Under the pieces are notes generated by a model. The model was given only the letters and a program-made list of their open reading frames with translations, was not told the origin of the DNA and searched no databases. From Caldifarciminota bacterium (GTDB lineage: Bacteria > Hydrothermota > UBA3072), in the NCBI GenBank assembly GCA_023131835.1, contig JAGLZA010000128.1:1-33669 (forward strand): a stretch of DNA of 33,669 nt. The letters are read 5' to 3'. The position numbers and the translations under genes are program-made. Each line of letters begins with the position of its first letter. Position 1 is the stretch's first letter. This document shows positions 95 through 32,950 of this stretch, piece after piece.

Positions 95-232
95 GTGAAT
101 ATTCCTACAATCGTTTTACTCTGGTTCTTTGTATTTATAAGAGCAATTATCTTCGTCGGGATAGTGTGTTATATCGTTATTGAATTCAGGAGGTTCAAGA
201 AGAGGAGAGAAGATAATGATAAAGGGGGTTAA
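95..232 (+). CDS. Possible small hydrophobic membrane protein upstream of the ATPase genes
   Basis: I do not recognise this ORF. The open frame extends back to a TTG at 32, but that part is repeat DNA and lies upstream of the candidate promoter, so the GTG at 95 is the more likely start if the gene is real (45 residues). The peptide has one or two hydrophobic segments rich in Ile, Val and Phe, then a basic, charged tail (RRFKKRRED). It overlaps the subunit H gene by 17 bases. No Shine-Dalgarno sequence precedes it; the GTG coincides with the predicted transcription start, so translation would be leaderless. Small hydrophobic proteins do occur at the heads of ATP synthase operons, but nothing in the sequence proves function. 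It may be a chance ORF. Confidence 0.28.
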   Translation: MNIPTIVLLWFFVFIRAIIFVGIVCYIVIEFRRFKKRREDNDKGG

Positions 233-1394: not shown

Positions 1395-1395
1395 T

Positions 1396-3288
1396 ATGTG
1401 GGTTCCGGAATTAATGTCTCGATTTCTCCTCGCAACGACCAGAGAAGACCTTACTGAAGTTCTTGAATTCTTTGGCCGCGAAGGTAAGTTCCATGTGGTT
1501 GAATTTACGGATGAAAATCTTTTAGAACCCAAATATGGAGAAACCTATCAAAACCTGACAGAACAGAAAGATAGAATTGAAAGCATTATCGAATACTTTG
1601 ATGTAAATGTTAAAAGAGAATCTTTTGTCCATGCTGTGGATGCAACTGAGGTAGCAAAAGAAGCAGGAGAGTTCTTAAATGAATTCCAGGTAGAGTTGGG
1701 TAAGAAGCAGGAAAGGCTAAAGGAACTAAAGACCTCAGAGACAGAACTCAATATCATAGCAGAACTTCTTGCACTCTTTCCTGATTCTGATGCGTCCATT
1801 CAGGATCTTGGTGAGAATAGGTTCTTGAGGGTCTTGGGAGGGATCATACCGGTTGAAGAGAAAGAAAATCTCCTGGAAGTGATAGAGGGCATGGATTTTC
1901 ATTTATATTTTAGACCTCCTCAAATAGATAGAATTCCGGTAATGATCTTCTATCCTGCCGAAGATGAGGAAATGCTTAATAAGATCTTAAAACAGGTCCG
2001 TTTCAACAGGGTTGAAGGGTTTAATCTGTTGGAAGGTTCAATTTCAACACTTAAGGATTCTATTGAAATAGATTTCTGGGAGATAAAGGAGGAGAGGGCA
2101 ACTATTCAGGGTTCCATTCGTGAGATGGGAGAGGATGTTGAAGAGAGGATATTGGGTTTGAGGAGGGATGTGGATGTTTCATTAAAAGAATTACAATGGG
2201 TAAATAGGATGGCCAGAACAGAACAGGTTTTCTTTATTGAGGCATACTTGCCGAGCAGAATGGTTTCTGAAATAAAGGAAAGGGGAAAAGAACTTAACCT
2301 GTATATCATCGAGGAGGAACTTATAAACAGAAGGAGTAAAAACGCAGAGAAGGCTCCTACAAAACTCAATAATCTCTCTTTGTTCCGACCATTCGAATTC
2401 CTTATCAAGACCTATGGTATTCCTTCATATAGGGGAATTGATCCGACCATCCCAACAACCATTACCTTCCTCCTGATGTATGGTATTATGTTTGGTGATT
2501 TCGGACACGGATTGGTTCTTATTCTTTTGGGTATCGGTTTATGTTTTATTCGCTTATTAAGAAAATATGCGCTGTTCCCAATTGTAATGGGGTTTTCCTC
2601 TGTTATATTTGGAATCCTATTTGGGGAATTCTTTGGAATGCATCCCTTTGATCCTATCTGGTTTTCTCCCTTTGAAAATACAGAGAAAGCAATGCTTTTT
2701 GCAATTTATCTCGGGATTGGAATGATAAGTGTTGGATTTATAATACGGCTTATTGAGGAGGGTTTGAACGGGGATAAGGAAGAACTGTTCCTTTCAGGGG
2801 AAGGTTTACCAGGCTTTATATTCTATCTGTCAATAATTCTTCTGGCTTTTTCTCTGTTAAATAACCTATCTAAAAAAGTAATCATCACAGAAGCCTGTGT
2901 TACCGCGATAGCAATTCTCATCGTTGCTCTGGGTAAGCCCATAAAGGAGGCAATTTCAAAGGGCTTCAATACAAGTTATCTTCTTATATCTCTGGGCGAG
3001 GTGATACATCTATCGCTTGCTATGATTTCCAATACCCTTTCATTTATTCGGGTTGCTGCATTCAATATAGGCCATGTAATTCTTACCATCTCTATAATCA
3101 CAATAGCTGATATGATGGGTGAGATGGTTGGTGTCGGAAAATATTCTACACTCATTACCGGGCATCTTTTCATTATTGCCCTTGAAGGAATGATAGTTTT
3201 TATACAGGCACTCCGTTTGGAATATTATGAGTTTTACTCACGATTCTTTAAGAAGGGTGGAAAACTATATAAACCAATAAAGATATAA
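1396..3288 (+). CDS. V/A-type ATPase subunit I (a subunit, membrane stator)
   Basis: At 630 residues this has the two-part layout of subunit I. About 345 cytosolic residues with coiled-coil stretches bind the peripheral stalks, and about eight membrane segments follow. The family motif around YGIMFGDFGHGLVL opens the membrane part. NTLSFIRVAAFN (about residues 546-557) contains the essential stator arginine, Arg552, that faces the rotating ring. The end ALEGMIVFIQALRLEYYEFY is also diagnostic. It works with subunit K to pass ions across the membrane. It starts at an ATG immediately after subunit C; a GGGAGG upstream of subunit K follows its stop. Confidence 0.97.
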   Translation: MWVPELMSRFLLATTREDLTEVLEFFGREGKFHVVEFTDENLLEPKYGETYQNLTEQKDRIESIIEYFDVNVKRESFVHAVDATEVAKEAGEFLNEFQVELGKKQERLKELKTSETELNIIAELLALFPDSDASIQDLGENRFLRVLGGIIPVEEKENLLEVIEGMDFHLYFRPPQIDRIPVMIFYPAEDEEMLNKILKQVRFNRVEGFNLLEGSISTLKDSIEIDFWEIKEERATIQGSIREMGEDVEERILGLRRDVDVSLKELQWVNRMARTEQVFFIEAYLPSRMVSEIKERGKELNLYIIEEELINRRSKNAEKAPTKLNNLSLFRPFEFLIKTYGIPSYRGIDPTIPTTITFLLMYGIMFGDFGHGLVLILLGIGLCFIRLLRKYALFPIVMGFSSVIFGILFGEFFGMHPFDPIWFSPFENTEKAMLFAIYLGIGMISVGFIIRLIEEGLNGDKEELFLSGEGLPGFIFYLSIILLAFSLLNNLSKKVIITEACVTAIAILIVALGKPIKEAISKGFNTSYLLISLGEVIHLSLAMISNTLSFIRVAAFNIGHVILTISIITIADMMGEMVGVGKYSTLITGHLFIIALEGMIVFIQALRLEYYEFYSRFFKKGGKLYKPIKI

Positions 3289-3301
3289 TAGGGAGGTATT
3301 T

Positions 3302-3673
3302 ATGAATAGTTTTAAAGTCAAAATTGAGCGGTTGAAAACACTGAACACCGGTTTAAGAGTTGCTGCATTGATACTTGTGCTTCTTGGTATAATTGTTCTT
3401 GTTACTCCTTTTTCCCTCTTTGGTGCAGAAGAGGAAGTGAGTCAAGTAGTTGGCGAAAAAGCTACAGCATGGGCTTTCCTTGCAGCGGGCTTCTCAATTG
3501 CTGTAGCTGTTTTAGGGGCAGGGATTGCGCTTTCCAAAATTGGACCTGCTGCTATGGCTGCCCTTGCAGAAAAGCCAGAGATTATGGGTACTGCTATCCT
3601 CTTTGCAGGTCTTGCAGAAGGACTTGCCATCTGGGGACTTATCGTAGCAATTCTTATCTTAGTTAAGGTATGA
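3302..3673 (+). CDS. V/A-type ATPase subunit K (c ring, proteolipid)
   Basis: 123 residues. An N-terminal hydrophobic segment (about 18-41) is followed by one helical hairpin (about 55-80 and 96-121). The ion-binding carboxylate is Glu106 in FAGLAEGLAI. The loop SKIGPAAMAALAEKPE is characteristic. The hairpin is a single unit, so the ring would be built from 2-helix repeats plus an extra N-terminal helix or cleaved leader, as in Thermus subunit L. I see no Gln or Thr/Gln set in the first hairpin helix of the kind that binds Na+ in Enterococcus NtpK, so proton coupling is more likely; this is inference. A good GGGAGG lies 5' of the ATG. The end overlaps subunit F as ATGA. Confidence 0.95.
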   Translation: MNSFKVKIERLKTLNTGLRVAALILVLLGIIVLVTPFSLFGAEEEVSQVVGEKATAWAFLAAGFSIAVAVLGAGIALSKIGPAAMAALAEKPEIMGTAILFAGLAEGLAIWGLIVAILILVKV

Positions 3674-3972
3674 AGATAAAGGTTATAGGTGATGAGTTCA
3701 CCTGTCTTGGGTTCAATCTTGCAGGAGTTGATACAGTGGTTACTATGGACAGAGAAACGGTTGATGTGGAATTCGAAAAGTCCCTGCAAGATGAGGAGAT
3801 AGGACTCATATTCATAACAGAGAAGGAGGCCGATCTCATCAGGGATAAGGTCGATAAACAGAAGACCGAAGGTAAAATGCCCCTGGTTGTAGAGATTCCT
3901 TCTAAGGTTGGATGGAGAGAAAGAGGCAGGACATTGCAATTGATAAAACGCGTTTTATCTATAGAAGTATGA
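3670..3972 (+). CDS. V/A-type ATPase subunit F (central stalk)
   Basis: 100 residues, the usual size for subunit F. The fold signature is present: an N-terminal KIKVIGDEFTCLGFNLAGV strand-helix, GLIFITEKEADLIRD in the middle and PLVVEIPSKVG near the end. With subunit D it forms the rotating shaft. It overlaps subunit K upstream and subunit E downstream through four-base ATGA junctions, so translation is coupled. In most archaeal-type operons F follows C and precedes A; here it precedes E. Confidence 0.95.
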   Translation: MKIKVIGDEFTCLGFNLAGVDTVVTMDRETVDVEFEKSLQDEEIGLIFITEKEADLIRDKVDKQKTEGKMPLVVEIPSKVGWRERGRTLQLIKRVLSIEV

Positions 3973-4550
3973 AGAAAGGCATAGAGGATTTAGAGAAGAA
4001 GATAATAAATAAGGCAAATGAGGAAGCAGAACTGGTTGTATCCAGAGCAAAGAAGGCAAGGTTACGCATACTAAAGGGAGCAAAGGAAGAGGCAAAGGAA
4101 ATAGAGGAGGAGGCTAAGAAAAAGGGAGAGGAATTTTTCGAGAAAGAAAAGAGAAGGATAATCTCGGAGAAGAGAATTGACGAAAAGAAGGAGATTCTTT
4201 CTGTGCGTCAGAAAGTTCTGGATCAACTCGCATTGGATATGGAACAATGTCTCCTTGAGATGCTAAAAAGAGAGGAAATGAGTGAATGGATAAAATCAAA
4301 GTGTGAGGAAATAATAGATAAGGAAAGAGAAAAAATGGTTCTTGTGACCAGAGAGAAAGATAAGGAAATATACGAAAAAATAGTAAAGAAAATTCATAAT
4401 CTAATGGTAGGGGTTGAGCCAATAGAGACAGGGTTTCTTCTCCGCTGCGAGGAGTGCGAATATGATTTTCGTTTCAATGTCATCTCTCAGAATGTCATTC
4501 ACAGGAACAGAAAGATAATTGTTTCAATGTTGGGAGAAAATAGTGGGTGA
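3969..4550 (+). CDS. V/A-type ATPase subunit E (peripheral stalk)
   Basis: 193 residues. The first ~90 form a highly charged coiled coil, followed by a compact C-terminal domain ending in DFRFNVISQNVIHRNRKIIVSML, matching subunit E, the partner of subunit H. The frame is open further upstream to an ATG at 3912, but that lies inside subunit F. The ATG at 3969 forms an ATGA overlap with the F stop, gives the usual start (MKKGIEDLEKKI) and is preferred. Its 3' end overlaps the subunit A start by eight bases. Confidence 0.9.
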   Translation: MKKGIEDLEKKIINKANEEAELVVSRAKKARLRILKGAKEEAKEIEEEAKKKGEEFFEKEKRRIISEKRIDEKKEILSVRQKVLDQLALDMEQCLLEMLKREEMSEWIKSKCEEIIDKEREKMVLVTREKDKEIYEKIVKKIHNLMVGVEPIETGFLLRCEECEYDFRFNVISQNVIHRNRKIIVSMLGENSG

Positions 4551-6303
4551 AGGGGTCCTTTACAGAATTTCAGGTCCTATCGTAGTATCAAGGAAGACAT
4601 CGGGTCTTAAGATGAACGAAGAGGTCAGGATAGGGGATGAGGAACTCATTGGTGAAGTGATAGAGATAAACGGGGAGGAAGCAGTAATTCAGGTGTATGA
4701 AGAAACAACGGGAATCAGTCCAGGAACAAGAGTCTCTGGCACAGGTAATCCAATATCGGTGGAATTGGGTCCTGGTCTAATTGGCTGCACATTTGATGGT
4801 ATCCAACGACCACTTGTCGTTATAAGAAAAGAGCAGGGTATTTTTATCAAGAGAGGGCTAAACCCCAAACCATTATCCAGGGACAGGGAATGGGAGGTGG
4901 ATATTCACTTGAAGAAAGACGATTTGGTTGTTCCAAATACCATAATTGGAGAGGTTGAAGAGACATCCCTTATCAGACATCGTATTCTCATTCCCCCGGG
5001 AGTATATGGTAAGGTGTTAGAGATAATAGAATTACCAGGATATAGAGTAGAGGATACGATCTGTATTATAGAAGATAAAGAGGGTGAAAGAAGAGAGGTT
5101 AAACTCTTCCACACATGGCCGGTTCGGAAAAAGAGACCCTTTATTGAAAGACTTCCCCACGAAGAGATACTGTTTACCGGTCAGAGGGTAATCGATTCCA
5201 TCTTTCCCCTTGCCAAGGGAGGGGTTGCTGCAATACCTGGAGGGTTTGGCACAGGAAAAACGGTAACTCAACACGCTCTTGCCAAGTGGGCTGATGCAGA
5301 TATTATCATATATATTGGTTGTGGGGAGAGGGGAAATGAGATGGCGCAGGTCCTGGAAGAGTTTCCTAAACTCAAGGACCCAAGGTCCGGGAAATCCCTT
5401 ATGGAAAGGACTATCCTTATTGCAAATACCTCCAATATGCCTGTTACCGCGAGGGAATCCAGTATATATACAGGTATTACTATGGCAGAGTATTTCAGGG
5501 ATATGGGTTATGATGTAGCGCTTATGGCAGATTCAACTTCCAGATGGGCAGAGGCTCTCAGAGAGATATCTGGTAGAATGGAAGAGATGCCAGCTGAGAG
5601 GGGTTATCCTGCCTATTTAGGCTCAAGACTTGCAGGGTTCTATGAACGAGGCGGAAGGGTAAAGGTTACAGAAGACAGAATAGGTTCTGTCTCTGTGATT
5701 GGCGCAGTTTCACCTCCGGGAGGAGATTTTTCAGAGCCTGTAACCAGCCACACAAAGCGTTTTGTTCGCACATTCTGGGTCCTTGATAAGGATTTGGCGT
5801 ATGCAAGGCATTATCCTGCAATATCCTGGACCAATTCATATTCAGGCTATTTTGAAGAGATTGCAAAATGGTGGGAGGCTAAAGATATACCTATTCGTAG
5901 CCTTCGTATCAGAGTAATGGAGACACTCACGGTTGAGACTCACCTGCGTCAGATAGTCCAAATGGTAGGAGAAGGTGCACTTCCCGAGAAAGAGAGATTA
6001 ACCTTAAAGGAAGCAGAACTCATCAGGGAGGGATTCCTTCAGCAGAATGCCCTATCACCGGTGGATGCATATTGCAGCCCTGAAAAGCAATATAGAATGC
6101 TGAAGATTATACTGGATTTTGGTGAGCGCGCGCGGGATCTCTTAGAAAGGGGACTTCCATTGTTTAAGATTATAGAACTACCGATATTTTCTGAATTGAA
6201 ACGGATGGGCGTAGAGATTGAAAATAAAGAGATAGATAAATTTGATAAATTGGCTGAAAGGGTAGAGAAAGAATTTGAAACCCTGAAGGAAGAATATGGA
6301 TAG
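4543..6303 (+). CDS. atpA: V/A-type ATPase catalytic subunit A
   Basis: 586 residues. The Walker A loop GGFGTGKT is at about 233-240. The catalytic Glu262 lies in GCGERGNEM. The A-subunit-specific non-homologous insertion is recognisable from [14 protein letters not shown] and HTWPVR. ATP hydrolysis or synthesis takes place here. I chose the GTG at 4543 because a GGGAG at 4532-4536 is correctly spaced and the resulting N-terminus ([15 protein letters not shown]) fits the family; an in-frame TTG at 4519 would add residues encoded inside subunit E. The gene overlaps E and B by eight bases each. No intein is present at the P-loop, a site where some archaeal A subunits carry one. Confidence 0.97.
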
Positions 6304-7672
6304 TATATACCATAAGAGACATATAGGGGCACAGGAATTAACAGGTCCCATCCTTATTGTGGAAGGTGTGGAGAATGTGGGTTTTGGTGAGTTGGTCCTG
6401 ATTGAGCAGGGTGATATAAATAGACTTGGGAGAGTCCTTGAAGTGGCTGGGAATCGTGCTGTATGCCAGGTTTTCGCTGGAACTTCTGGTATTGACAGGG
6501 AGAAGGTTCGGATTCGATTTACCGGTTCCCCAATGACCCTTCCTGTATCGGAAGAGATGATTGGGAGGGTATTCGATGGTCTCGGCAGACCAATTGATGG
6601 TTGTGGTGAGGTTATAGGTGAGGAAGAAAGAGATGTTAATGGTAACCCTTTGAATCCGGATGCACGGGAATACCCCCGGGAGAATATACTCACTGGCATA
6701 TCAGCAATAGATGGACTCACCACATTGATTCGTGGACAAAAACTTCCGATATTCTCAGGTGCAGGATTGCCCCATAATGAGATAGCAGCTCAGGTTGTCA
6801 ATCAGGCAAGGATTTCGAAGGAGGAGGATTTTATTATCATATTTGCGGCAATGGGCATAAAGGCCGATGATGCAGATTTCTTTATGAGAAGATTTGAAGA
6901 GGGTGGTGCTTTAAGCCGCCTTGTTACATTTATTAATCTTGCGGATAGCCCATCAGTGGAACGACTCATAACTCCGAGATGTGCATTAACAGCAGCAGAG
7001 TATCTTGCATTTGATAAAGGTAACCATGTTCTCGTTATAATGACCGACCTCACAAATTATTGTGAGGCATTGCGTGAAGTAGCCTCAGCGATGGGAGAAG
7101 TCCCTTCAAGAAAGGGTTACCCCGGATATCTATACAGTGACCTTGCTACTCTGTATGAACGAACCGGAAGGGTGAAGGGTAGGGAAGGTTCCATTACCCA
7201 GATACCGATACTAACTATGCCTAATGACGATATCACCCATCCTATCCCGGATCTTACAGGATATATCACCGAGGGGCAGATTGTTCTCTCAAGAGAATTA
7301 TATCAGAAAGGCATCTATCCCCCAATAGATATTATGTCATCCCTGTCAAGATTGATGAAGGACGGCATAGGGGAAGGACGGACAAGGAAAGACCATCCTG
7401 ATCTCTACAGTCAGTTATACGCATCCTATTCTCGAGTTCAGAGGGTCCGCTCTCTTGCATCAATAATAGGCGAGGATGAATTATCTGAGGTGGATAGAAA
7501 TTATCTTAAGTTTGGAAAAGACTTTGAAGGGAAGTTCCTTAATCAGGATAAGACAGAGAGTCGGTCCATTGAGGAGACTCTGAATCGTGGATGGGAAGTT
7601 CTTATGAATCTTCCGGAATCCGAGCTTGTCAGGCTATCAAAAGAGGAAATTGAAGAATACAGGAGTAAGTAG
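6296..7672 (+). CDS. atpB: V/A-type ATPase regulatory subunit B
   Basis: 458 residues, close to the family norm of about 460. The degenerate nucleotide loop [17 protein letters not shown] replaces a Walker A motif, as expected for the non-catalytic B subunit. [22 protein letters not shown] and [30 protein letters not shown] are hallmark stretches. The ATG lies inside the last codons of subunit A and is preceded by an AAGGAAG. Its stop shares one base with the GTG of subunit D. Confidence 0.97.
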
Positions 7673-8277
7673 TGGCTATAGCACCCACCCATAGCAATCT
7701 TCTGAAGTTAAAAAAGGAATTAGGGATAGCCAGAGAAGGATACAGCCTCCTGGATGAAAAGAGGGAAGTTATGATAATGGAACTTATGGGTAATATACAC
7801 GGTTTTAAAAGGATGGAAGAGGACTTAACAGAAAAGTTAAAGGAAGCATATATTGCACTGGAAGATGCTGTGGTTTCTATGGGGAAGGATAACTTGAGGA
7901 AATTTTCTAAAACAAAGGAGCAGCCCTATGTGGATATCCGGATGAGATCGATTATGGGTATTCCAGTTCCGGAACTAATGATTGATATTCCTGAAGAAGG
8001 ATGTTATGCATCTCTTGAATCAACTGACGAGAATTTTGACCTTGCGTTGATGAATTTCAAAGAGGTATTAGAGATCGCAGTTCAGTGGGCAGCAAGGGAG
8101 GCTCTATTATGGAAGTTGGGTTCAGAGATTAATAAGACGCAGAAAAGGGTAAATGCACTTGAGAATCTATTCATTCCTGAATATGAAGAAGATATAAAGC
8201 GGATAGAGGAATCTCTGGAAGAGGAAGAAAGGGAAGAGTTCTTCAGGAGGAAAAGGTTGAAAGGAAGGGGGTATTGA
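7672..8277 (+). CDS. V/A-type ATPase subunit D (central shaft)
   Basis: 201 residues. The N-terminus APTHSNLLKLKKELGIAREGYSLLDEKREVM is the classic subunit D signature, and the protein is a long antiparallel coiled coil with the hinge region in the middle. With F it forms the rotor axle. The GTG start overlaps the subunit B stop by one base, and the stop shares a base with the ATG of the next gene, a universal stress protein. This is the last true ATPase gene of the operon. Confidence 0.96.
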   Translation: MAIAPTHSNLLKLKKELGIAREGYSLLDEKREVMIMELMGNIHGFKRMEEDLTEKLKEAYIALEDAVVSMGKDNLRKFSKTKEQPYVDIRMRSIMGIPVPELMIDIPEEGCYASLESTDENFDLALMNFKEVLEIAVQWAAREALLWKLGSEINKTQKRVNALENLFIPEYEEDIKRIEESLEEEEREEFFRRKRLKGRGY

Positions 8278-23327: not shown

Positions 23328-23413
23328 GCACTTTGCATTCTTCATTTTTCACTGGAGCGAAGCGACGTGCCTTTGTGGTTAATCTCTGGCGGAAGTGAAT
23401 TATTCCCTTGACA
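23328..23413 (+). repeat. Chained repeat modules ending in the envelope-operon -35 box
   Basis: TTTTGCACTTTGCATTCTTC and GGAGCGAAGCGAC (shared with 21645-21685 and 33551-33601) are joined to CTTTGTGGTTAATCTCTGG and TTATTCCCTTGACA (shared with 20056-20098 and 22197-22237). Confidence 0.75.
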
Positions 23414-23436
23414 TTTCTCTCACTCTAATGTATTTA
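23408..23436 (+). promoter_or_regulatory. Candidate promoter of the nine-gene envelope operon
   Basis: TTGACA (23408-23413), with a weak TATTTA at 23431-23436 after 17 bases in an AT-rich stretch (TATTTATATA). The -35 box is shared with a repeat module. The predicted start is near 23443, with GGGAGGG before the ATG at 23467. Confidence 0.5.
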
Positions 23437-23466
23437 TATAGTTGGAATAAAAAGATGGGAGGGCTT

Positions 23467-24855
23467 ATGAATGTAAAGAAAATTTTACTATGGCTTCCTT
23501 TTATACTGAACGCAACGACTTTTTCATTTGGAATGATTCCATCGCCACAGATAGCAGGGGATAGTTTTTTTGTCCAGATAAATGCATATGATCCTGAGGA
23601 TTTTAATGGATTCGGAATTATCTCAGTGCGTCCCTTACCGTCATATATGGAAGTGATAGGGGCGAGTAACAACAGAGTAGAGTTCGCCAATGGTGTGTGG
23701 AGTGGATATGTCCGAATCTTTCGTACAGCAGATTCTGTCCATTTGAACTGTACAGAGTATGGTCATAGTGATATAAACCTGAGTAATGTATTCTCGGTTC
23801 TTTCGAATTCTCCCGAGCGATTACAGATACTCCTTCCGGGTGAATTTTCAGATCCTGGTAATACCGCAGGTAGTGGAAGATATGGGGCGCCTGCGTCAAT
23901 AATTGCAGGTAGAGATACGCTTGCAGAGATATATCTTACTGATCACTGGTGGAACCCTGTCGGTTCCGGCAATGATGAAGTATATATTACCTGTAATAAT
24001 CCATTCCCAATATTGCCTTTTCCTGCTTCTATGAATGCGGGTTCTCTGCAGGTTAATTATAATTTGAGGACTGCCCAACAGAATAATTATATATATGTTC
24101 ATCATAATCCTGCTGGAGTTGACACCTTTATTTCTGATACAAGCAGTGCATTCGAGGTGATTCCTGGAGACTTCTCACGTTTGCTGCTTACCGTTCCGGG
24201 AGAGGTTCTTCTCCCGGGTGATACCCTACAACAACCTTCAGCCACAAGATATCCGGGTGTTGATGGAGAACCATCATTACAGACTGCAGGAGTGAGTTTT
24301 CCTGTTGCTGTGTATGCTGTAGATAATTGTTGGAATGTTGTAAGTACAGCTCCTCCGGACATTGTCAGGATTGAGGCTTACAGATTTTCATCGCTCACTC
24401 AGACTGGAACCCTGATTAATGGGATTGCTGATTTTTCTATTGTTCCCACCACAGGAGGTATCGTACTCGTACTCTGGGCTACTGATACTACTGATATATC
24501 TATAGAAAATTCATATAATGTTCTGGTTAATGTCTCCGGAGGTGGTGAGGAATTGGAGGAACGAATAGTCAACTTCCCCAATCCCTTTGGAAGGAATAAT
24601 ACATACACCACTATCCATTATTATCTAAACGAAGATGCCGATGTATTGCTTAGAATATATGATAAATTTGGCAACCTTGTTTGGGTTTATGAAGGACAGG
24701 GACAGGGAGGAGAGCAACCTAATACAGTCAGATGGGATGGAGTTACTGTTGATGGTGAAAGAGTTGCTTCGGGAATCTATGTTCTTTGTATAAGAGCAAC
24801 GAATCGAACCAAAACTGTTGCTGAATATAAAAGAAAGATTGCTGTTATAAGATAG
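23467..24855 (+). CDS. Secreted surface protein with two Ig-like repeats and a FlgD-like C-terminal domain
   Basis: 462 residues. A signal peptide (MNVKKILLWLPFILNATTFSFG) is followed by a variable β-rich region and two related repeats of about 110-120 residues. Each opens LQILLPGEF or LLLTVPGEV, then a DPGN/PGDT turn and a DHWWNPV or DNCWNVV strand. The C-terminal ~85 residues (NFPNPFGRN start, NTVRWDGVTVDGERVASGIYVLCI) are a FlgD/Ig-like sorting-type domain. The frame extends back to a GTG at 23395, but that lies upstream of the promoter; GGGAGGG at 23458-23464 supports the ATG at 23467. It is the first gene of the envelope operon and is probably exported or anchored at the cell surface. 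Function is unknown. Confidence 0.8.
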   Translation: MNVKKILLWLPFILNATTFSFGMIPSPQIAGDSFFVQINAYDPEDFNGFGIISVRPLPSYMEVIGASNNRVEFANGVWSGYVRIFRTADSVHLNCTEYGHSDINLSNVFSVLSNSPERLQILLPGEFSDPGNTAGSGRYGAPASIIAGRDTLAEIYLTDHWWNPVGSGNDEVYITCNNPFPILPFPASMNAGSLQVNYNLRTAQQNNYIYVHHNPAGVDTFISDTSSAFEVIPGDFSRLLLTVPGEVLLPGDTLQQPSATRYPGVDGEPSLQTAGVSFPVAVYAVDNCWNVVSTAPPDIVRIEAYRFSSLTQTGTLINGIADFSIVPTTGGIVLVLWATDTTDISIENSYNVLVNVSGGGEELEERIVNFPNPFGRNNTYTTIHYYLNEDADVLLRIYDKFGNLVWVYEGQGQGGEQPNTVRWDGVTVDGERVASGIYVLCIRATNRTKTVAEYKRKIAVIR

Positions 24856-24863
24856 GAGGAAAG

Positions 24864-26219
24864 GTGAAGCGAATAATCAGGTTCTTTCTTCTTGGACTAT
24901 TCTTGACGGGTTTGGCTTATGGTGAAGGTGTGGGAGGATCGTCCGGGGAGTTATTAAACTTTGGCGCCGGGGCAAGGGTGATGGGGATGGGAAGGGCTGG
25001 GACTGGTCTTTCAGATGATGCTTCTGCCCCCTATTACAATCCTGCAGGACTCTACCAGATCAATCCCCAGGAGATTCTCTTTATGCACACAATGCTTTTT
25101 ATGGGGATAAGTTATGATTATCTATCATACATCCATCCTACTGAACGCTTTGGTTCCTTTGGGATTTCCTTTGTACAGGTGCGAACCCACGGGATTGAGG
25201 ATAGAGATGTAACCAATGTCCGAATAGGTTCATTTGACGAATCAGAGATGGTTGCTATCCTCACTTATGCGAAGAATATCGGAAGCCTTGTCTCTCTGGG
25301 CGCGAATTATAAGGTGGTATACCACACAATCTCCCACTGGAGTAGCCTTGGACAGGGATTGGATTTTTCTACGCTAATTCTGCCAAATAAACCATTATCA
25401 GTTGGATTGATGTTTAAGAACATTGTAGCACCCAAACTCACATTGGATACAGAAGAAGATGTCTATCCCTTTATAATGAGAGGTGGACTGAGTTATAAGA
25501 CCCTTTCTGATAAACTCACGGTATGTACAGATATGAGTTGGTCTAAGTATCGAGGGATTTTATTATTTGGAGGTATGGAATATTGTGCACATCGATATGC
25601 AACCCTTCGTTTGGGTATGGATTATAACTATCTTACCCTTGGTGTTGGATTTAACATACCTTTACCCCAATATACAATAAAGGTTGACTATGCCTATCAA
25701 CATCATTACGCTGCAGGAGGATTGGTATCACCAACCCAAAATTTCTCCATATCAGTGGACTTTGGTGGTTTTCGCGCAAAGCTGCATCCGGAACGCCCGG
25801 TCTTCTCTCCTGCTGCTTATGGAGGAGAAAACATTCTATGGCTACAAAAAGAGGTTTCAACAAGGGAAAAGATTAGAAAATGGCAAATCTTGATAAATAA
25901 CTCCTGGGGTGAGGTAATCAGGATTTATAAGGCCTGGGGAGACATCCCCGCAAGGCTCTACTGGGATGGAAGGGATGAGACAGGGAATATAGTCCAGGAT
26001 GGGACATATTACTACCGTATTATTGTGACAGATGAGACAGGACGTTCTTATTCCTCGGAAGGTAAACTTGCTACAGTGAAGACAAAGGGTCCGGAAGGGA
26101 GAGTGCTCTTTGAAGAGCAAGAGGATACTCTGGAAGCAATACCGGATACACTTATTCAATTTGAAGAGACGGAAAAGAAAGACGTGGAGGAAAAATCAGA
26201 GGAAGAGAAGGAGCAGTAA
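24864..26219 (+). CDS. PorV/UPF0164-like outer-membrane barrel fused to a FlgD-like domain
   Basis: 451 residues. After a signal peptide (to about Gly20), the segment LNFGAGARVMGMGRAGTGLSDDASAPYYNPAGL is the diagnostic start of PorV/PorQ/UPF0164 barrels, and alternating strands run to about residue 310. Residues ~325-400 form a FlgD-like Ig domain (WQILINNSWGEVIRIYKAWG, then LYWDGRDETGNIVQDGTYYYRI). The last ~45 residues are an acidic Glu/Lys tail. A GTG start with AGGAGG overlapping the previous stop is clear. Known PorV proteins help release T9SS cargo; fusion to a FlgD-like domain is less usual. The tail is likely periplasmic or disordered. Confidence 0.83.
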   Translation: MKRIIRFFLLGLFLTGLAYGEGVGGSSGELLNFGAGARVMGMGRAGTGLSDDASAPYYNPAGLYQINPQEILFMHTMLFMGISYDYLSYIHPTERFGSFGISFVQVRTHGIEDRDVTNVRIGSFDESEMVAILTYAKNIGSLVSLGANYKVVYHTISHWSSLGQGLDFSTLILPNKPLSVGLMFKNIVAPKLTLDTEEDVYPFIMRGGLSYKTLSDKLTVCTDMSWSKYRGILLFGGMEYCAHRYATLRLGMDYNYLTLGVGFNIPLPQYTIKVDYAYQHHYAAGGLVSPTQNFSISVDFGGFRAKLHPERPVFSPAAYGGENILWLQKEVSTREKIRKWQILINNSWGEVIRIYKAWGDIPARLYWDGRDETGNIVQDGTYYYRIIVTDETGRSYSSEGKLATVKTKGPEGRVLFEEQEDTLEAIPDTLIQFEETEKKDVEEKSEEEKEQ

Positions 26220-26221
26220 TT

Positions 26222-29089
26222 ATGCGGTTTCTTGTGAACGGCTTTTTGATAATCATAGGTTTTCTTCTTCCTGTTCAATCCCTTCTGGGAATAACTCCTG
26301 AGGCGGCCGAGGCTTTCAGGATTACATCTGATTTATTCAAAGACCACGAATATGAAAGAGCTAAAGAACTCTTCAATTCCCTCCTGGGCGAGATGGAGGA
26401 ATATCGGGGAGAGGCATTGTACAGGATTGGAGAGTGTGATTATAACCTCAGGAATTACGACAGAGCCATAGAGAATTTCAGGAAAGTGTGGGAAGAATAT
26501 AGGGATACCTATCTTGCACCAGAAGCTCTCTACGGCTTAATACTATCCTATATTGCTTCAGGAAACTTTCGGGAAGCAGAGGAGATTCTTTCTAAACTAA
26601 TCTCAAGATATCCTGGATATAAAAAGGCAAAGAAAACCTTGCTTGCAGAAGCGATTCTCTCTTTCGAAAAGGGCAATTACCCTGAGGTTGTAAAGAAACT
26701 GGAGAATATAGATACAAAAGAGGCGCTCTTCTATAAAGCCAAGTCCTATTTCTCTATGAGTAAGGCTATTGAAGCCCTATCGCATTTCAAAAAACTCACT
26801 GAGGATTATCCTGACAGCCCTTTGGCACAACATGCCTACTACTATATGGGTGATGTTCTATTCTTTTCCGGAGATTATGAGGGCGCTCTATATAAATATA
26901 ATATCTTTCTTGATAAGTATCCCTATAGTGAATTAAAGGATTATGCTAAGTATAAATTAGCGGTATGTTATTTTAATAAAGGGGATTACTCTAAAACTAT
27001 GGGACAATTAAAGCCCATTCTAAACAGCCCTGATAATTTCCTTGCTGCTCATAGTAGTCTTCTCTTTGCAGAGAGTCTTTTAGGGGTTGGGGAATTTGAT
27101 GAGGCATTAAGGATATTTACCAGGGTTATATCGAACTATGCCAATCTAAAGGTCAGTGCAATGGCAGATCTAAGGATGGGTGAGACATTTCTTGAGAAGG
27201 ATGACACGGTGCAGGCAAGGATTGTTTATCAGCAAATGGCATCGCGATATACATCCGGGGAATTCGGAGGGTTTGGGGACTATCTTGCCGGTGCTCAGTT
27301 ATTCGAGGAAGAAGATTTCTTCCAGTCAAAGAATTATTTTACACGCATATTGAAGAACTACAGTGGGTCAGATTTTATTTGTCCGGCCACGGCTATGCTT
27401 ATCCGAACCTATAATAAGATGGGGGATTACGAATTATCTATTGCTTTGGGTTCCCGTCTATTAAAGGATATTGATTGCAGTAAAAAAAGGATATGGAAGG
27501 GAAGGGCTATGTTCCACCTTGCAGAGGCATACTATATCAAGTCCCGGTACAAGAAGGCAAAGGAGCTCTACAGGGAGGTAACCGAGCAGTTCAATATTCC
27601 TGAACTTATGAGTCCTGCCCTGACTGCTCTTGGTTGGTGTCTTCTTCATGAAGGGAGGTATGATATTGCAGAGAAACAATTCAAGAAAGTATTAACAGGA
27701 TATTCAAGGGATACTACATCCTTTATCTGTAGTCTTTTGGGAGAAGGAGTGGTCCTGTATAATAGAGGAGAATACAAGGATGCATTGGATTATTTTGAGA
27801 GGGTTCCGGATATTTCCCCTGAGAAATCACTTGCTGCAAAGTCGATATTCTATGCGGGGAAATGTTATTATAATCTTGAATATTACAGGCAAGGAATAGA
27901 AGGATGGGAGAGGGTTCTTTCTGAATACCATGATACAGAGATGGCAGCAAATGCTGCATATCAGATTGGACAGACATATTTCCAGGCCTTAAAATATGAT
28001 CAGTCAATTGCTTATTTCAGGTTGCTCATCAAGGACTATCCGGAATCTCCCCTCGTTCTAAAATCTCAAATAGCACTTGGTCATTCATATTACAACAGTC
28101 AGGATTATCAGTCTGCAGTTAGGGAGTTTTCAAAATTTCTCTCATTATATCCTGAAGATACTATTTATTCACAGGTAAGGTCTTCCCTTTCACTGGCATA
28201 CTATATGTTGGGACAGGAGGACAAAGATGCCTTAAAGGAGTTTATAAAACGTTTTCCAGGAGATCCAAAGGCTGCCCTTGCGCAATTTAATCTGGGCGTT
28301 GATGCCTACGACAAAGGTGACCACGAGGTAGCAATTGAGGAATTCAGGAAGACGGTGGTTGACTTTCCTGAGACAGAGTATTCTGAGAAGGCTCAAATAA
28401 ATATTCTGAAATGTTATGAAGATATGGAGAATCATGAGAAAATGGCAAAAGAGGCTGAACAATTTCTTGAATATTTTCCGAAGAGCAAGAAAGTCCCCCT
28501 TGCATTGTTCTATAAAGGTATGGGTTATTTCTATCTGAATGATTATGAGAAGGCAATTAAAGCCTTCAAAAGCATTGCAAGAGAATATCCTGAAAGTGAG
28601 TATGTGTCCTGTGCAAGGTACAACCTTTCACAATGTTATAAAAAAATGGGGGAGACAGAGAGAGCAGTGGGCGAATTAAAAACCTATTCAAATTCCGGGG
28701 AAGGCAGCGAATTTAAGGGTCAAATATTATCAGGTGCTGTCTATCAGGAGCAGGGGGATTACGGAAAGGCGTTGAATATCTATTCGGAGATTAAGCCAAC
28801 CAATCTAAAAGAAAAAGCCGAACTCTATTCGCGAAAGGGCGAGTGCTGTGTAAAACTGGATAAGATAGAGGTGGCAATTGTGGAATATAAGAGATTGCTT
28901 CCACTCAATCTCAAAAACAATAAATACCAGATGAAGGGTTTAGCCGAACTTGGAGGTTTATACGAAGGGAAGAAAGATATCCAGAAAGCGATAAAAACAT
29001 ATTCCCGACTCCTTGAGATAACAACCGATGAAAGTGTTATTTCTACTGTCAGGGAAAGGTTGGAATATTTGAAGTCCAGGGGAAGATAG
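26222..29089 (+). CDS. Very long periplasmic TPR protein
   Basis: 955 residues. The N-terminal hydrophobic segment (FLVNGFLIIIGFLLPVQSLLG) is a signal peptide. The rest is about 22-24 tetratricopeptide-like repeats, for example EALYRIGECDYNLRNYDRAIENF and AAYQIGQTYFQALKYDQSIAYF, ending with KKDIQKAIKTYSRLLEITTDES. Repeats with the D-Y/E-x-A-I-x-x-F/Y-x-x-L pattern and YP-S/G spacing resemble YbgF/CpoB and BamD-type periplasmic TPR proteins. It starts two bases after the barrel gene and ends directly at the next gene. It likely acts as a scaffold between the outer-membrane and inner-membrane parts of the operon's complex. Confidence 0.88.
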   Translation: MRFLVNGFLIIIGFLLPVQSLLGITPEAAEAFRITSDLFKDHEYERAKELFNSLLGEMEEYRGEALYRIGECDYNLRNYDRAIENFRKVWEEYRDTYLAPEALYGLILSYIASGNFREAEEILSKLISRYPGYKKAKKTLLAEAILSFEKGNYPEVVKKLENIDTKEALFYKAKSYFSMSKAIEALSHFKKLTEDYPDSPLAQHAYYYMGDVLFFSGDYEGALYKYNIFLDKYPYSELKDYAKYKLAVCYFNKGDYSKTMGQLKPILNSPDNFLAAHSSLLFAESLLGVGEFDEALRIFTRVISNYANLKVSAMADLRMGETFLEKDDTVQARIVYQQMASRYTSGEFGGFGDYLAGAQLFEEEDFFQSKNYFTRILKNYSGSDFICPATAMLIRTYNKMGDYELSIALGSRLLKDIDCSKKRIWKGRAMFHLAEAYYIKSRYKKAKELYREVTEQFNIPELMSPALTALGWCLLHEGRYDIAEKQFKKVLTGYSRDTTSFICSLLGEGVVLYNRGEYKDALDYFERVPDISPEKSLAAKSIFYAGKCYYNLEYYRQGIEGWERVLSEYHDTEMAANAAYQIGQTYFQALKYDQSIAYFRLLIKDYPESPLVLKSQIALGHSYYNSQDYQSAVREFSKFLSLYPEDTIYSQVRSSLSLAYYMLGQEDKDALKEFIKRFPGDPKAALAQFNLGVDAYDKGDHEVAIEEFRKTVVDFPETEYSEKAQINILKCYEDMENHEKMAKEAEQFLEYFPKSKKVPLALFYKGMGYFYLNDYEKAIKAFKSIAREYPESEYVSCARYNLSQCYKKMGETERAVGELKTYSNSGEGSEFKGQILSGAVYQEQGDYGKALNIYSEIKPTNLKEKAELYSRKGECCVKLDKIEVAIVEYKRLLPLNLKNNKYQMKGLAELGGLYEGKKDIQKAIKTYSRLLEITTDESVISTVRERLEYLKSRGR

Positions 29090-29635
29090 ATGAAGAATAA
29101 ACGAAGTCATTTAATACCAAAGGAGGTTTTTCGATTACGCATTATAAACACCCTTATTGGTATTCTTATAGCATTAATCGTAGTTTTGATACTATTTGCT
29201 ATAAGTCTCTTCTATTGGGTTCCGGCAGGAAGACACATCTTTTCAGAGGGGGGGTTGAATTCTCCTGCTGGACAAAATATAATCCTGGCCGGAAAGATAT
29301 TGATTGGTCTAACTCTTTTCCTTGCTATTATATTATTCTGGTCTGTCTATCTCATCGGTTCAAGATTCCTGGGGCCATTGATTCGGCTAAGCATGGATAT
29401 AGAAGAATTGGGTAGTGGAGAGAAACCAGAAGAACTGCGGTTCAGAGAGGGTGATGAGTGGGAATTTCACTCTTTAGCAGTTTCCCTCAATGAGGTCTTC
29501 GGGGAATTTGGGGAATTTAAGGAGATAGAGGAAGAGATTATAAAATTCAATGATATGTTGGAGAAAAAGAAAAAAAAGCCAAAGGAAGCGGTTACTTTTA
29601 TTAAGGAACTCACAACCAAACTAAAAAAGGAGTGA
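29090..29635 (+). CDS. HAMP-like inner-membrane protein without an output domain
   Basis: 181 residues. Two membrane helices (about 19-44 and 66-90) enclose a short external loop. A HAMP-like stretch follows (FLGPLIRLSMDIEELGSGEK, REGDEWEFHSLAVSLNEVF), then a charged coiled coil ending KELTTKLKKE. No kinase, cyclase or chemotaxis domain is present. It starts on the base after the TPR gene and lies four bases before the TolQ-like gene. A role as a membrane adaptor passing a conformational signal to the motor is possible, but is inference. Confidence 0.7.
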   Translation: MKNKRSHLIPKEVFRLRIINTLIGILIALIVVLILFAISLFYWVPAGRHIFSEGGLNSPAGQNIILAGKILIGLTLFLAIILFWSVYLIGSRFLGPLIRLSMDIEELGSGEKPEELRFREGDEWEFHSLAVSLNEVFGEFGEFKEIEEEIIKFNDMLEKKKKKPKEAVTFIKELTTKLKKE

Positions 29636-29638
29636 ATA

Positions 29639-30286
29639 ATGGCAGGGATAAGTTTTTTAACCCTTTTGAAAACGAGTTGGGCAATAGATTTGCTACTTGT
29701 ATTTTCCATTGTTGCCCTTGCTGTTATATTAGAGAGACTCTGGGCATACCGACAGTTGAGGATAGATGAAGGAAGATTGTTGAAAAGGGTCCAGGGAGCG
29801 TTAAAGAAGGGTAATATAGAGGAAGCAATCTATCTCTGTGAGGCGGCCAAGAACCCCCTTGCAGAGATTTTTATAGTTGGAATAAGGAACAGGAGGTTGC
29901 CAAGAGAGGACATTTCTGATCTTCTGGATGGTGCTATTATAGAGGCTAAGACATTCCTTGAAAAGAGGAATGTCGCTTTAAGCACTATCAGTTTTATTGC
30001 TCCTCTGCTTGGACTCCTTGGAACTGTTCTCGGTATCATACGGGCTTTTCATGACCTTGCTGTATCAGGTGCTGGTGGCCCCTCGGTTGTGATGGCAGGA
30101 GTTGCTGAGGCATTAGTTTCTACAGCGATAGGGATTATTGTAGCAATACCTGCAGCTATCTTCTACAATTTCTTTATGAATAATGTAAAGGGAATTCTGA
30201 CGAAGATAGAATCTACTACCAGGAAATTTCTCACCTTTTTGAATCTCACATTCGAAAAAGAGAGGATAATTAATAAGGTTTTATAA
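29639..30286 (+). CDS. TolQ/ExbB/MotA-type ion-channel subunit
   Basis: 215 residues with three membrane segments. The motifs PLLGLLGTVLGIIRAF and AEALVSTAIGIIVAIPAAIFYNFF place the two conserved Thr positions of the ExbB/TolQ channel. With ExbD-type proteins it would use the proton (or sodium) gradient to drive movement in the periplasm. It directly precedes two ExbD genes and a tonB-like gene. It is about 30 residues shorter than E. coli ExbB, mainly at the N-terminus. Confidence 0.93.
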   Translation: MAGISFLTLLKTSWAIDLLLVFSIVALAVILERLWAYRQLRIDEGRLLKRVQGALKKGNIEEAIYLCEAAKNPLAEIFIVGIRNRRLPREDISDLLDGAIIEAKTFLEKRNVALSTISFIAPLLGLLGTVLGIIRAFHDLAVSGAGGPSVVMAGVAEALVSTAIGIIVAIPAAIFYNFFMNNVKGILTKIESTTRKFLTFLNLTFEKERIINKVL

Positions 30287-30706
30287 ATGAATAGGAATGC
30301 CATTTTTGAAAGTGAGATAGAAAATGCCGTAGGGAGGATCCCCATTACTCCTATGATAAATGTGGCTCTTCTTCTGGTTCTATTCTTTATGATGTCTGCT
30401 CCGGCTATCTTTATGTCGGGAATAAAGGTTAAGAGTCCCTCTCTTACGACCGAGCCAGGAACAGAGGCTACAGAGTTAAAGGTGAATATATACATAGATG
30501 CAGAAGGAGATCTCTACCTGAATGAAGAATTGATCCAATGGGATGAATTTAGCCAGAGGGTGGCGGAACTCCTTGCGAGAAGCACAACAAGAATTGTGGT
30601 TGTAAGTGCTGCCCCTCATATTCCCATTCAGAAGGTCGTCACCGTCCTTGATATCGCAAGACAAAAAGGGGCATTGAAACTGGCTTTGCTACGGAGGAAG
30701 GAATGA
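30287..30706 (+). CDS. ExbD/TolR-like protein 1, Asp to Asn variant
   Basis: 139 residues with one membrane helix (about 25-45) and a periplasmic ExbD domain. The position that in ExbD/TolR carries the essential Asp (PLVDV) reads PMINV here: Asn25, codon AAT at 30359-30361. The other features of the family, including INVALLLVLFFMMSAP and the C-terminal IPIQKVVTVLDIARQKGALKLALL, are intact. It follows the TolQ-like gene without a gap and overlaps the second ExbD by four bases. A second ExbD with a normal Asp suggests a heteromeric rotor or linker pair in which only one subunit binds protons. Confidence 0.9.
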   Translation: MNRNAIFESEIENAVGRIPITPMINVALLLVLFFMMSAPAIFMSGIKVKSPSLTTEPGTEATELKVNIYIDAEGDLYLNEELIQWDEFSQRVAELLARSTTRIVVVSAAPHIPIQKVVTVLDIARQKGALKLALLRRKE

Positions 30707-31113
30707 GACGGAAGAGTGCTCTGGAAGGAGGACAAAAGGAAGCAGATATAATGATAGTTCCACTTGCCGATGTGAGTTTTACAATATTAATAACACTAAT
30801 GGTATTAACTCCGGTTTTGCTCCTTACTTCTAAACTTCATGTTAATCTCCCTGTAGCTGCAACAGTAGAGCCTCCTCAGGAGAAGAATATAAGTATTACC
30901 ATTACTTCTGATAATGTAATATCTGTGAACAATGTAATCGTATCTCGTGAAGAACTGCCGAATGTTTTGGAGGAAACAATCAGAAAGAATCCAAAAAGAT
31001 TGATATACATTAGAGCGGATCAAACTACCCGGACGGATGCAGTGATGACGATTATTGGTCTGGTAAAGAGATTGGGTGCAGAACGGATATCCATCGCAAC
31101 TATCCAGAGGTAA
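30703..31113 (+). CDS. ExbD/TolR-like protein 2, canonical Asp
   Basis: 136 residues. The membrane helix begins IMIVPLADVSFTILITLMVLT with the conserved Asp23. The periplasmic domain (ISITITSDNVISVNNVIVSREEL, then IYIRADQTTRTDAVMTIIGLVKRLGAERISIAT) is a standard ExbD fold. It starts in an ATGA overlap with ExbD 1 and its stop shares a base with the tonB-like ATG. Paired ExbD proteins with one TolQ are known from the AglRQS motor of Myxococcus and some TonB systems. Confidence 0.93.
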   Translation: MRRKSALEGGQKEADIMIVPLADVSFTILITLMVLTPVLLLTSKLHVNLPVAATVEPPQEKNISITITSDNVISVNNVIVSREELPNVLEETIRKNPKRLIYIRADQTTRTDAVMTIIGLVKRLGAERISIATIQR

Positions 31114-32081
31114 TGATGCTCAAATTAAATAATTACGGTTTTTATGATAGGAAAATACTTACCTCTATTATTCTGTCATTGCTTATACACTCTGCCGTAT
31201 TCTGGTTTACAAGCCAGAGAAGTAAAGCAAGAATAATTACAAGGATAGATAATGTAGAATTCATTGATGAGACTTCTCCTGCATCCTTTACCCCAACTCT
31301 ACCAACAAAGAGTGTTTTTCAGGCAATAAAGGATAGGTTCAAAAGGAAAAAGGAAGTCAAGGAATTAGAAATGAACGAGATTACAAAGATAGTTCGCTCC
31401 CTGCCTCCTGTACCTGGAGTGAACCAGGAGGAAGGGATAGCTCTTGATGGGAAACAACTGGATCGCTCTCAGGCAAAGGGTATAGACCTGGATAAATTTG
31501 ATAGAATGGAAGGTCAAAAAGGAGGTGTTACAGAGGTAATCAGAATTGCCTCTTCCGGTGAACAGAAGGGGTCAGAGGATATACTTAGTAAGGCACCAAT
31601 AAAGATAGACAAAAAGGAAAGGATTCATTCTGAAGCCCCTGTTGGACTATTCTCTTCTCCGGGCAGTGGAGGGGAAGTGGACCTCGAGAGGGTTCCAACA
31701 GAAGCGATAGATAAAAGTTATAAGGAATTTACGGAAGAAAAGAAAGAGAAGGTCCGTTTGAGGAAAATTCCCTCTGTGGGTAAGGCACATATTAAGATTA
31801 CAGGGCCACTTTCTAAAAGAGGACTCAAATACAAGCCACTACCTGCTTATCCGGAATGGGCGGCAAGAGAGGGAATATCAGCAATAATTAAACTACAGAT
31901 AATGGTGAATCCTGATGGGACAGTCAAGCCAGGCATCTTTGTTTTGTGCACCTCTGGTTATGGCTCATGGGATAGGGCTGTAATTGATTTTATTAAGAGA
32001 TGGCAATTTGCTCCTCTAAGTGATGATGAGCGTCAGATTGTTCAAACCGGAATCATAATAATAAAATTCGTTTTGGAGTAG
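31113..32081 (+). CDS. TonB-like energy-transducing protein
   Basis: 322 residues. One N-terminal membrane anchor (LTSIILSLLIHSAVFWFTS, about 16-34), a long charged linker of about 190 residues that is not Pro-rich, and a C-terminal TonB domain. In the TonB domain, LPAYPEWAAREGISAIIKLQIMVNPDGTVKPG carries the YP and G motifs, and RAVIDFIKRWQFAPL follows. It would transmit force from the TolQ-ExbD motor to an outer-membrane partner. The next gene encodes a FlgD- and OmpA-like protein, and the PorV-like barrel lies in the same operon; no TonB-dependent receptor with a TonB box is nearby. ATG at 31113 or 31116. Confidence 0.88.
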   Translation: MMLKLNNYGFYDRKILTSIILSLLIHSAVFWFTSQRSKARIITRIDNVEFIDETSPASFTPTLPTKSVFQAIKDRFKRKKEVKELEMNEITKIVRSLPPVPGVNQEEGIALDGKQLDRSQAKGIDLDKFDRMEGQKGGVTEVIRIASSGEQKGSEDILSKAPIKIDKKERIHSEAPVGLFSSPGSGGEVDLERVPTEAIDKSYKEFTEEKKEKVRLRKIPSVGKAHIKITGPLSKRGLKYKPLPAYPEWAAREGISAIIKLQIMVNPDGTVKPGIFVLCTSGYGSWDRAVIDFIKRWQFAPLSDDERQIVQTGIIIIKFVLE

Positions 32082-32083
32082 AG

Positions 32084-32950
32084 ATGAAAAAAATACTTTT
32101 ACTTTTATTTTTTACTGTTCTCAATCCTTTAGGACTTCAATCCCAGGAGGATGTTAGGGAAGAGGTTATAAAGGGGAAATACAAGGGAAAGATCGAGGAA
32201 AAGAAACCTGAATCAGAACTCACCTATGATATATTTGAGGTTGTTGAATCCTATGGTCCCCGGGGTAGTCATATCTATGATGAAGAGATTAAGGAACATT
32301 CTGAGATTGCGGCAACTCCACTTCCAAGACTGGTAAGCGAACAAGTTAGAAAACCCTGGTTTCATAGAATTATTACCCCACCTATAGCTATCTTCCATCC
32401 AATTTATAAAGAAGCTGTGCAGAATTGGGAATTAGTTATAACAGATGCTACAGGCAAGGTATTCCGAACATTCTCTAACAAGGGAAGGCCTCTGGGGAAT
32501 ATTGAATGGGATGGTAGGGATAGAGAAGGCAGTATGCTTGATATAGGGACCGATTATTCATACTATGCAACTGCTGTGGACCAATTGGGTAATACCTCTA
32601 AGATATTGGGTGGCAAGATAAGGATTCCCGGAATATACTGGAAGGAGGAGTTGAACTCCATTGTGAGACTGGATGGAAGGGTTATATTCAAGGAGAATTC
32701 TCAAGAGTTGACCAGGGCAGGAGAAAGATTACTCCTGGAGGCTTCTGATCTCGTCAGGAAGGATATTAAAAAACGTCTAAGGGTAGTTGTATATTCGCGA
32801 AAGGAAGACCTTTCTTTGAAGAGAGCAAGGATTGTGGGAACATTCCTCCTTGATAGAGTAATTATGCCTATTAGTATGGTGACCACCATCGCGGGTTATA
32901 AGTCAGTAGGAGAAGATAAGACAGATCACATAGATATCATAATCCGTTAA
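32084..32950 (+). CDS. Secreted protein with FlgD-like and OmpA/Pal-like domains
   Basis: 288 residues. A signal peptide (MKKILLLLFFTVLNPLGLQS) and a linker are followed by a FlgD-like Ig domain (about 105-190: WELVITDATGKVFRTFSNKG, IEWDGRDREGSMLDIGTDYSYY). The C-terminus is an OmpA/Pal-like domain (about 195-288: VRLDGRVIFKENSQELTRAG, DLSLKRARIVGTFLL, DHIDIIIR). Arg247 in SLKRARIV matches the peptidoglycan-binding Arg, but the GHTDxxG loop before it is shortened, so the partner Asp is not obvious. Last gene of the operon, three bases after the tonB-like gene. No Lipo-box Cys is present, so it is not a typical Pal lipoprotein. GGAG precedes the ATG. Confidence 0.82.
   Translation: MKKILLLLFFTVLNPLGLQSQEDVREEVIKGKYKGKIEEKKPESELTYDIFEVVESYGPRGSHIYDEEIKEHSEIAATPLPRLVSEQVRKPWFHRIITPPIAIFHPIYKEAVQNWELVITDATGKVFRTFSNKGRPLGNIEWDGRDREGSMLDIGTDYSYYATAVDQLGNTSKILGGKIRIPGIYWKEELNSIVRLDGRVIFKENSQELTRAGERLLLEASDLVRKDIKKRLRVVVYSRKEDLSLKRARIVGTFLLDRVIMPISMVTTIAGYKSVGEDKTDHIDIIIR

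Follow-up and report, generated by a model that had tools for sequence, protein, structure and literature searches.

Paired ExbD subunits with a single transmembrane aspartate between them: a conserved, recurrent trait that suggests an asymmetric Ton-type motor

The window, i.e. the whole stretch of 33,669 nucleotides that was analysed, comes from a Caldifarciminota bacterium whose assembly comprises 537 contigs and whose nearest named relatives are Candidatus Stahlbacteria and candidate division WOR-3 metagenome-assembled genomes (MAGs). It carries an operon of eight genes:

24864..26219, + strand: PorV/PorQ-family outer-membrane protein (NCBIfam NF033709, 105.9 bits, cut-off 90)
26222..29089, + strand: large TPR protein, 955 aa (Pfam TPR families)
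29090..29635, + strand: 181-aa membrane protein (counterparts only in the loci L037 and L243)
29639..30286, + strand: ExbB/TolQ-type channel subunit (Pfam MotA_ExbB, PF01618, 105.2 bits; aligned with ExbB of 5sv0)
30287..30706, + strand: ExbD1 (Asn25 replaces the proton-binding Asp; AAT at 30359-30361)
30703..31113, + strand: ExbD2 (Asp23 retained; GAT at 30769-30771)
31113..32081, + strand: TonB-like protein (Pfam TonB_C, PF03544, 43.9 bits; TIGR01352 above cut-off)
32084..32950, + strand: FlgD-Ig-like protein (Pfam FlgD_ig, 25.2 bits, below the cut-off of 27)

The operon shows the features of a TonB system, namely a TonB C-terminal domain (PF03544) in combination with an S-x3-H motif, here SLLIH, within the N-terminal membrane segment of the TonB-like protein. 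The ExbB retains the equivalents of Thr148, Thr181 and Glu176 in the alignment, and the polar threonine ring is thus present. The exbD1 gene lies directly 3' of the ExbB gene and its stop codon overlaps the start codon of exbD2 in the string ATGA. The ExbB and both ExbDs obtain their best NCBIfam scores against TolQ and TolR models, all below cut-off, and neither TolB nor Pal was recognised among the eight genes with Pfam and NCBIfam. The 181-aa protein gave no match in the same two collections, and the FlgD-Ig-like protein has, by eye only, an OmpA-like C-terminus. The genes for the PorV/PorQ-family, TPR, ExbB, ExbD1, ExbD2, TonB and FlgD-Ig-like proteins all recur in the two nearest relatives (L037 and L038), the last of them again downstream of TonB. 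Among nine wider loci, one of which (L245) ends early at a contig edge, the TonB and FlgD-like genes recur in 9/9, the TPR gene in 7/9 and the PorV/PorQ-like gene in 5/9.

The two ExbDs differ at the position of the proton-binding aspartate. ExbD1 (ATG at 30287) has AAT as codon 25, i.e. Asn25 in the context PMINVALL, and ExbD2 (ATG at 30703) has GAT as codon 23, i.e. Asp23 in the context PLADVSF. Both score far above the Pfam ExbD (PF02472) cut-off of 25.4 bits, with 78.7 and 75.5 bits, respectively, and in a phmmer comparison with solved structures 'pminv' of ExbD1 and 'pladv' of ExbD2 align on the same 'pfidv', which holds Asp25 of E. coli ExbD. The transmembrane aspartate that marks the family is present in ExbD2 and missing from ExbD1, itself an ExbD homologue; the codons and the alignment confirm what an earlier note on this DNA had read from the letters. 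A sequencing error at the AAT codon is ruled out, because the Asn is common to independent MAGs: two of these, with ExbD1 proteins that are 77% and 71% identical to that of the window, also read PMINVALL. Other relatives, in families f9, f24, f18, f10, f17 and f5, have Asn or Ser at the ExbD1 site. As the Asp-less ExbD1 is more alike between relatives (77 and 71%) than ExbD2 (69 and 63%), it is, judged by these identities, not decaying. In a model built from a three-row alignment the predicted periplasmic domain of ExbD2 matches solved ExbD (best E 2.5e-06), and the ExbD1 model, made from such an alignment, was poor (mean pLDDT 43.8) and was left unused. Elsewhere in the same genome contig C500 carries a second, divergent ExbB-ExbD-ExbD-TonB set in which both ExbDs have the Asp (SMADIAFLLL type), and the unpaired ExbD on contig C251 has it too.

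ExbD1 was searched in 60 genomes, with matches in 54, and an ExbD1 alignment in 390 genomes, with matches in 202 at E 1e-16; the site was then read by fetching the loci and aligning every ExbD. WOR-3 loci from the larger search were taken when the ExbD1 match was at about E 1e-32 or better, and weaker ones were omitted except L035 (an unpaired ExbD, with Asp). The sample from outside WOR-3 consists of 20 stretches from the 390-genome search, all matches in the small phyla of genomes G288, G262 and G354, and, for each of the phyla of G318 and G210, the 30 best loci. The pairs are therefore a sample of best matches and no census; L246 was left out, and L037, L038, L042 and L043 were omitted from the counts as copies of loci already included.

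Within WOR-3, 92 loci from 89 genomes were obtained, of which 91 have two ExbDs (the other, in G106, has a single ExbD in view, with Asp). Exactly one Asp is found in 87/91 of these pairs, two in 4/91 (G021, G032, G059 and G120) and none in 0/91, and the one-Asp pattern is more than chance. In one WOR-3 clade it is ExbD1 that has changed, to Asn or Ser, and in another it is ExbD2, to Cys, Ala, Gly, Asn or Ser. Taken over all 162 distinct ExbD1/ExbD2 pairs, 107 have one Asp, 55 have both and 0 have neither, and both are kept in 50/70 pairs outside WOR-3 as against 5/92 inside. The 20/70 one-Asp pairs outside WOR-3 read 12 times D/N, three times N/D, three times D/A and twice D/S. A single genome (G395; loci L161, L165 and L169) contains three paired systems, in which the ExbD2 site reads Asn, Ser and Ala, respectively, instead of Asp. 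As a control, all 32 distinct unpaired ExbDs from the same fetched loci have the Asp. The alignment of many pairs that the earlier note had proposed as a check thus reveals a trait that is both conserved and recurrent. The same note had held that relatives with Asp in ExbD1 would speak against its asymmetric reading. Such relatives do exist, in 69 WOR-3 operons, yet in all 69 it is then ExbD2 that is without Asp, and the asymmetric reading is therefore strengthened.

ExbD1 and ExbD2 form two mirror clades in a tree. For 161 of the 162 pairs (all but L001, the divergent one from the window's own genome) a concatenated tree was built without the Asp columns, and the fewest changes on it that account for the site are 2 in ExbD1 and 4 in ExbD2; on a more careful tree of 54 representatives they are 2 and 3. 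Parsimony counts switches without direction, and loss was assumed because the Asp is general in the ExbD family. In AU tests, with groups set by trait and not by tree, a single clade was rejected for the ExbD1-lost rows (p-AU 0.024) and for the ExbD2-lost rows (p-AU 0.0002), from which it follows that loss of the Asp was repeated and could affect either subunit. On the 161-row tree each of the seven loss groups examined is monophyletic. Among the 69 pairs of the WOR-3 ExbD2-lost clade the lost site underwent at least seven changes among Gly, Cys, Ala, Asn and Ser, and the Asp of ExbD1 underwent 0 changes over 15.6 substitutions per site. For the WOR-3 clade without the ExbD1 Asp (18 pairs, including that of the window) the corresponding figures are at least two changes, and 0 for the partner Asp over 5.75 substitutions per site.

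Other features vary along with the number of aspartates. The helices of ExbD1 and ExbD2, compared without the site itself, have a mean identity of 0.67 in two-Asp pairs (n=54) and group means of 0.24 to 0.35 in one-Asp pairs (n=107), a divergence such as would be expected after the roles had become fixed. In ExbB, which was usable for 148 pairs (13/161 pairs lacked a usable one), the equivalents of Thr148 and Thr181 are present in 148/148. The Glu176 equivalent is Glu in 46/46 two-Asp pairs and has been replaced in 32/102 one-Asp pairs, by Val, Ile, Thr or Gln, in about eight changes on the tree; the corresponding Fisher value of 1.7e-06 ignores relatedness and is not readable as a probability. 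Tests on independent pairs (one Asp versus Glu176 loss, and ExbD1 versus ExbD2 loss) gave no significance, with too few events. The families concerned are f15, f22, f23, f27 and f31, and f5, f10, f17, f18 and f24, all of them one-Asp systems. By its place relative to T178 we matched this residue to E. coli TolQ E173, which, in passages of the source, lies at the entrance of the proton channel and is lethal when changed to Ala (PMC12583513). Because the Glu176 equivalent is lost in 32/102, some one-Asp motors could conduct differently, or not at all.

In eight loci (L024, L026, L027, L028, L032, L034, L067 and L083; families f5, f10 and f17) a single open frame of 363 to 377 codons encodes an ExbB with ExbD1 joined to its C-terminal end. 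The fused ExbD1 has Asn or Ser at the site, and in 8/8 an unfused ExbB gene lies immediately upstream. A pore with room for two helices would be overfilled by five fused copies, and a natural and possible reading of this lineage is thus a mixed pentamer in which a single ExbD1 is tethered. A crude scan for internal starts, which covered 7/8 fused junctions, found a string resembling a ribosome site before two adjacent ATGs in L032 and before one TTG in L034, and flagged no such upstream string at the other five; in L032 and L034 a separate ExbD1 could possibly be made from the fused gene. A different order, ExbB-ExbD2-ExbB-ExbD1, is found in three two-Asp WOR-3 loci (G021, G032 and G059), and in the two-Asp relatives L017, L020, L025 and L239 the genes are interleaved as ExbB-ExbD2-ExbB-ExbD1-TonB, with an ExbB for each ExbD. 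The neighbourhood as a whole is common to a two-Asp system (L240) and to one-Asp systems, which points to much the same machinery with a different axle chemistry.

Rotary models for Ton, Tol and the flagellar stators, as set out in parts of two papers, let the proton channel switch to and fro between two essential aspartates, each step using one proton and covering 36 degrees (PMC12215075, PMC12905483). If the axle consists of ExbD1 and ExbD2 there is one site and therefore no alternation; on that same assumption the two alternating protonatable aspartates of 5:2 motors are absent from 107/162 pairs, the window's included. The reading that we favour, with a confidence somewhat better than even, is that ExbD1 and ExbD2 form an obligate heterodimer that has a single proton site, in an asymmetric 5:1:1 Ton-type motor, of which we infer the heterodimer, the use of protons, the rotation and the step size. 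The operon would then encode a Ton-type proton motor with two specialised axle subunits that sit together as a single heterodimer inside the ExbB pentamer. In the window only ExbD2 would carry the protonatable Asp, and ExbD1, as a permanently neutral partner, would complete the axle, pack the pore and help in the coupling to TonB. Protons would pass by way of the single Asp and the threonine ring of ExbB and, if the axle turns, about one would be spent per 72 degrees (about five per turn), whereas two sites in alternation would use one for every 36 degrees (10 per turn). We take the residues, their conservation, and the loss in either partner and never in both as support for this one-site heterodimer, together with the invariant Asp of the other partner, the constant Thr ring, the Asp in all unpaired ExbDs, the diverged helices, the fusions, the ATGA overlap and the common neighbourhood. 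An Asn at the site has been used in MotB to mimic the protonated state, according to passages of a review (PMC9389320), and a subunit with Asn, Ser or Ala may therefore be viewed as a partner fixed in the 'protonated' state. Evidence to the contrary comes from AglRQS of Myxococcus, where D28N in AglQ is enough by itself to eliminate proton conductance (parts of PMC3858216 and PMC9389320), and one Asp is thus insufficient there; a one-Asp motor may be workable only once further changes have arisen, of which the helix divergence in one-Asp pairs could be an example. Of the asymmetric heterodimer that the earlier note had proposed, one protonatable site per pair stands as a well-supported, conserved and recurrent trait, and the complex itself is what we infer from it; the note's other suggestion, a purely structural subunit, is compatible with the data.

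The evidence can also be read in other ways. If the subunits formed separate homodimers, ExbD2:ExbD2 would be an ordinary two-Asp motor and the Asp-less ExbD1 would form homodimers of its own or a competing, non-conducting complex, which would tune the number of motors or plug idle ExbB pentamers. The parts of the literature covered describe structures with homodimers, an Asp-less homodimer could serve as a stopper, and the three two-Asp relatives with one ExbB per ExbD (G021, G032 and G059), whose gene order could represent two separate motors, count against a one-site heterodimer. Nevertheless we consider separate homodimers unlikely. One full ExbB was counted in each of the 137 unfused paired loci (these include the three interleaved loci, whose second ExbB, upstream of ExbD2, extends beyond what was fetched), a subunit that only competes would have no need to pair with whichever subunit retains the Asp, in either direction, and the ATGA overlap suggests coupled output of exbD1 and exbD2. 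Somewhat less probable still is a device without continuous rotation, in which the ExbD1:ExbD2 pair would rock or act as a gate and each pull on TonB would take one proton cycle. The rotary models in the available part of a 2025 Ton/Tol paper alternate two Asp, an alternation that a single site breaks, and some of the one-Asp pairs do without the Glu at the channel entrance; on the other hand, the Thr ring and the remaining Asp are invariant. Turning, rocking and gating of a one-site motor would look alike at the level of sequence.

That one Asp merely became surplus after duplication of exbD, and was lost by neutral drift with the mechanism unchanged, seems very improbable to us. The lost site does wander among small residues, and one ExbD2-lost pair outside WOR-3 keeps its helices 0.68 identical (by eye, the D/A pairs of family f221 are of this kind), as if loss had come first. 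Both aspartates are often retained, however (in the proportions given above for pairs outside and inside WOR-3), and even a neutral loss would imply a working one-Asp axle. An adaptation of ExbD1 to sodium by way of Asn25, which the earlier note had raised, we regard as scarcely credible: orthologues have Ser, the mirror clade has Cys, Ala or Gly, and the helix core is without a relocated acid. PomB-type sodium stators retain the Asp. No relocated acid was found in the helix in 21/21 ExbD1-lost rows, and the stretch examined is free of charged residues in 72/86 ExbD2-lost rows, the other 14 being charged only near its far end. Deamidation of Asn to Asp is ruled out as a general answer, because Ser, Cys, Ala and Gly are also found at the site.

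The putative one-site heterodimer can be compared with the closest known systems. E. coli Ton ExbBD (e.g. 6tyi) resembles the window in ExbB/ExbD sequence homology, Thr ring and TonB partner, whereas its single ExbD forms a homodimer with two Asp, where the window has two ExbDs with one Asp between them. E. coli has one TolR gene. The best scores of the window's ExbB and ExbDs point towards TolQR of the Tol-Pal system, from which the operon differs in having no recognised TolB or Pal. MotB has a peptidoglycan-binding domain. The MotAB and PomAB stators belong, in passages of the review (PMC9389320), to the 5:2 class with an Asp in the helix, like ExbBD, and MotB is there a homodimer with Asp in both chains, unlike the window pair. 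The gliding motor AglRQS of Myxococcus xanthus has one ExbB-like and two ExbD-like subunits, as has the window at 29639-31113, and works, in the parts of the literature covered, with TPR and outer-membrane partners. The window's parts list (one ExbB, two ExbDs, TonB-like, TPR and outer-membrane proteins) resembles the Agl-Glt gliding machinery, a likeness of parts only. Passages of the review predict an Asp in both AglQ and AglS, whereas in the window pair only ExbD2 has one, and state as unknown whether AglQ and AglS form a heterodimer (PMC9389320).

The titles and abstract openings of the open-licence literature, a collection largely outside which fall subscription papers and preprints, returned nothing on paired ExbDs with a single Asp, which is weak evidence of novelty. 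One-Asp pairs suggest that ExbD heterodimers exist, the very case that the passages of the review leave open for AglQ and AglS (PMC9389320), and that there are natural motors that run on a single proton site instead of the two that textbook models require. Only tentatively do we extend this to a recurrent natural class of single-site 5:1:1 motors whose heterodimeric ExbD axle has one permanently neutral subunit, in which the Asp would have been lost in either partner some five or six times, about five protons would be used per turn in 72-degree steps, and one lineage would be hard-wired by fusion of the neutral subunit to one ExbB of a mixed pentamer. As one-site systems are kept across phyla, one-Asp and two-Asp orthologues in the same operon context make the two-Asp assumption directly testable.

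Two further observations concern the remainder of the window. A V/A-type ATPase operon at 180-8277 encodes an AC39-like protein, a 116-kDa I subunit and two alpha/beta-type subunits, together with a 123-aa membrane protein (3302-3673) that is, by eye, c-type-subunit-like and without an obvious sodium ligand set. Directly 5' of the PorV/PorQ-family gene, at 23395-24855, lies the gene for a 486-aa protein with a C-terminal FlgD-Ig-like domain.
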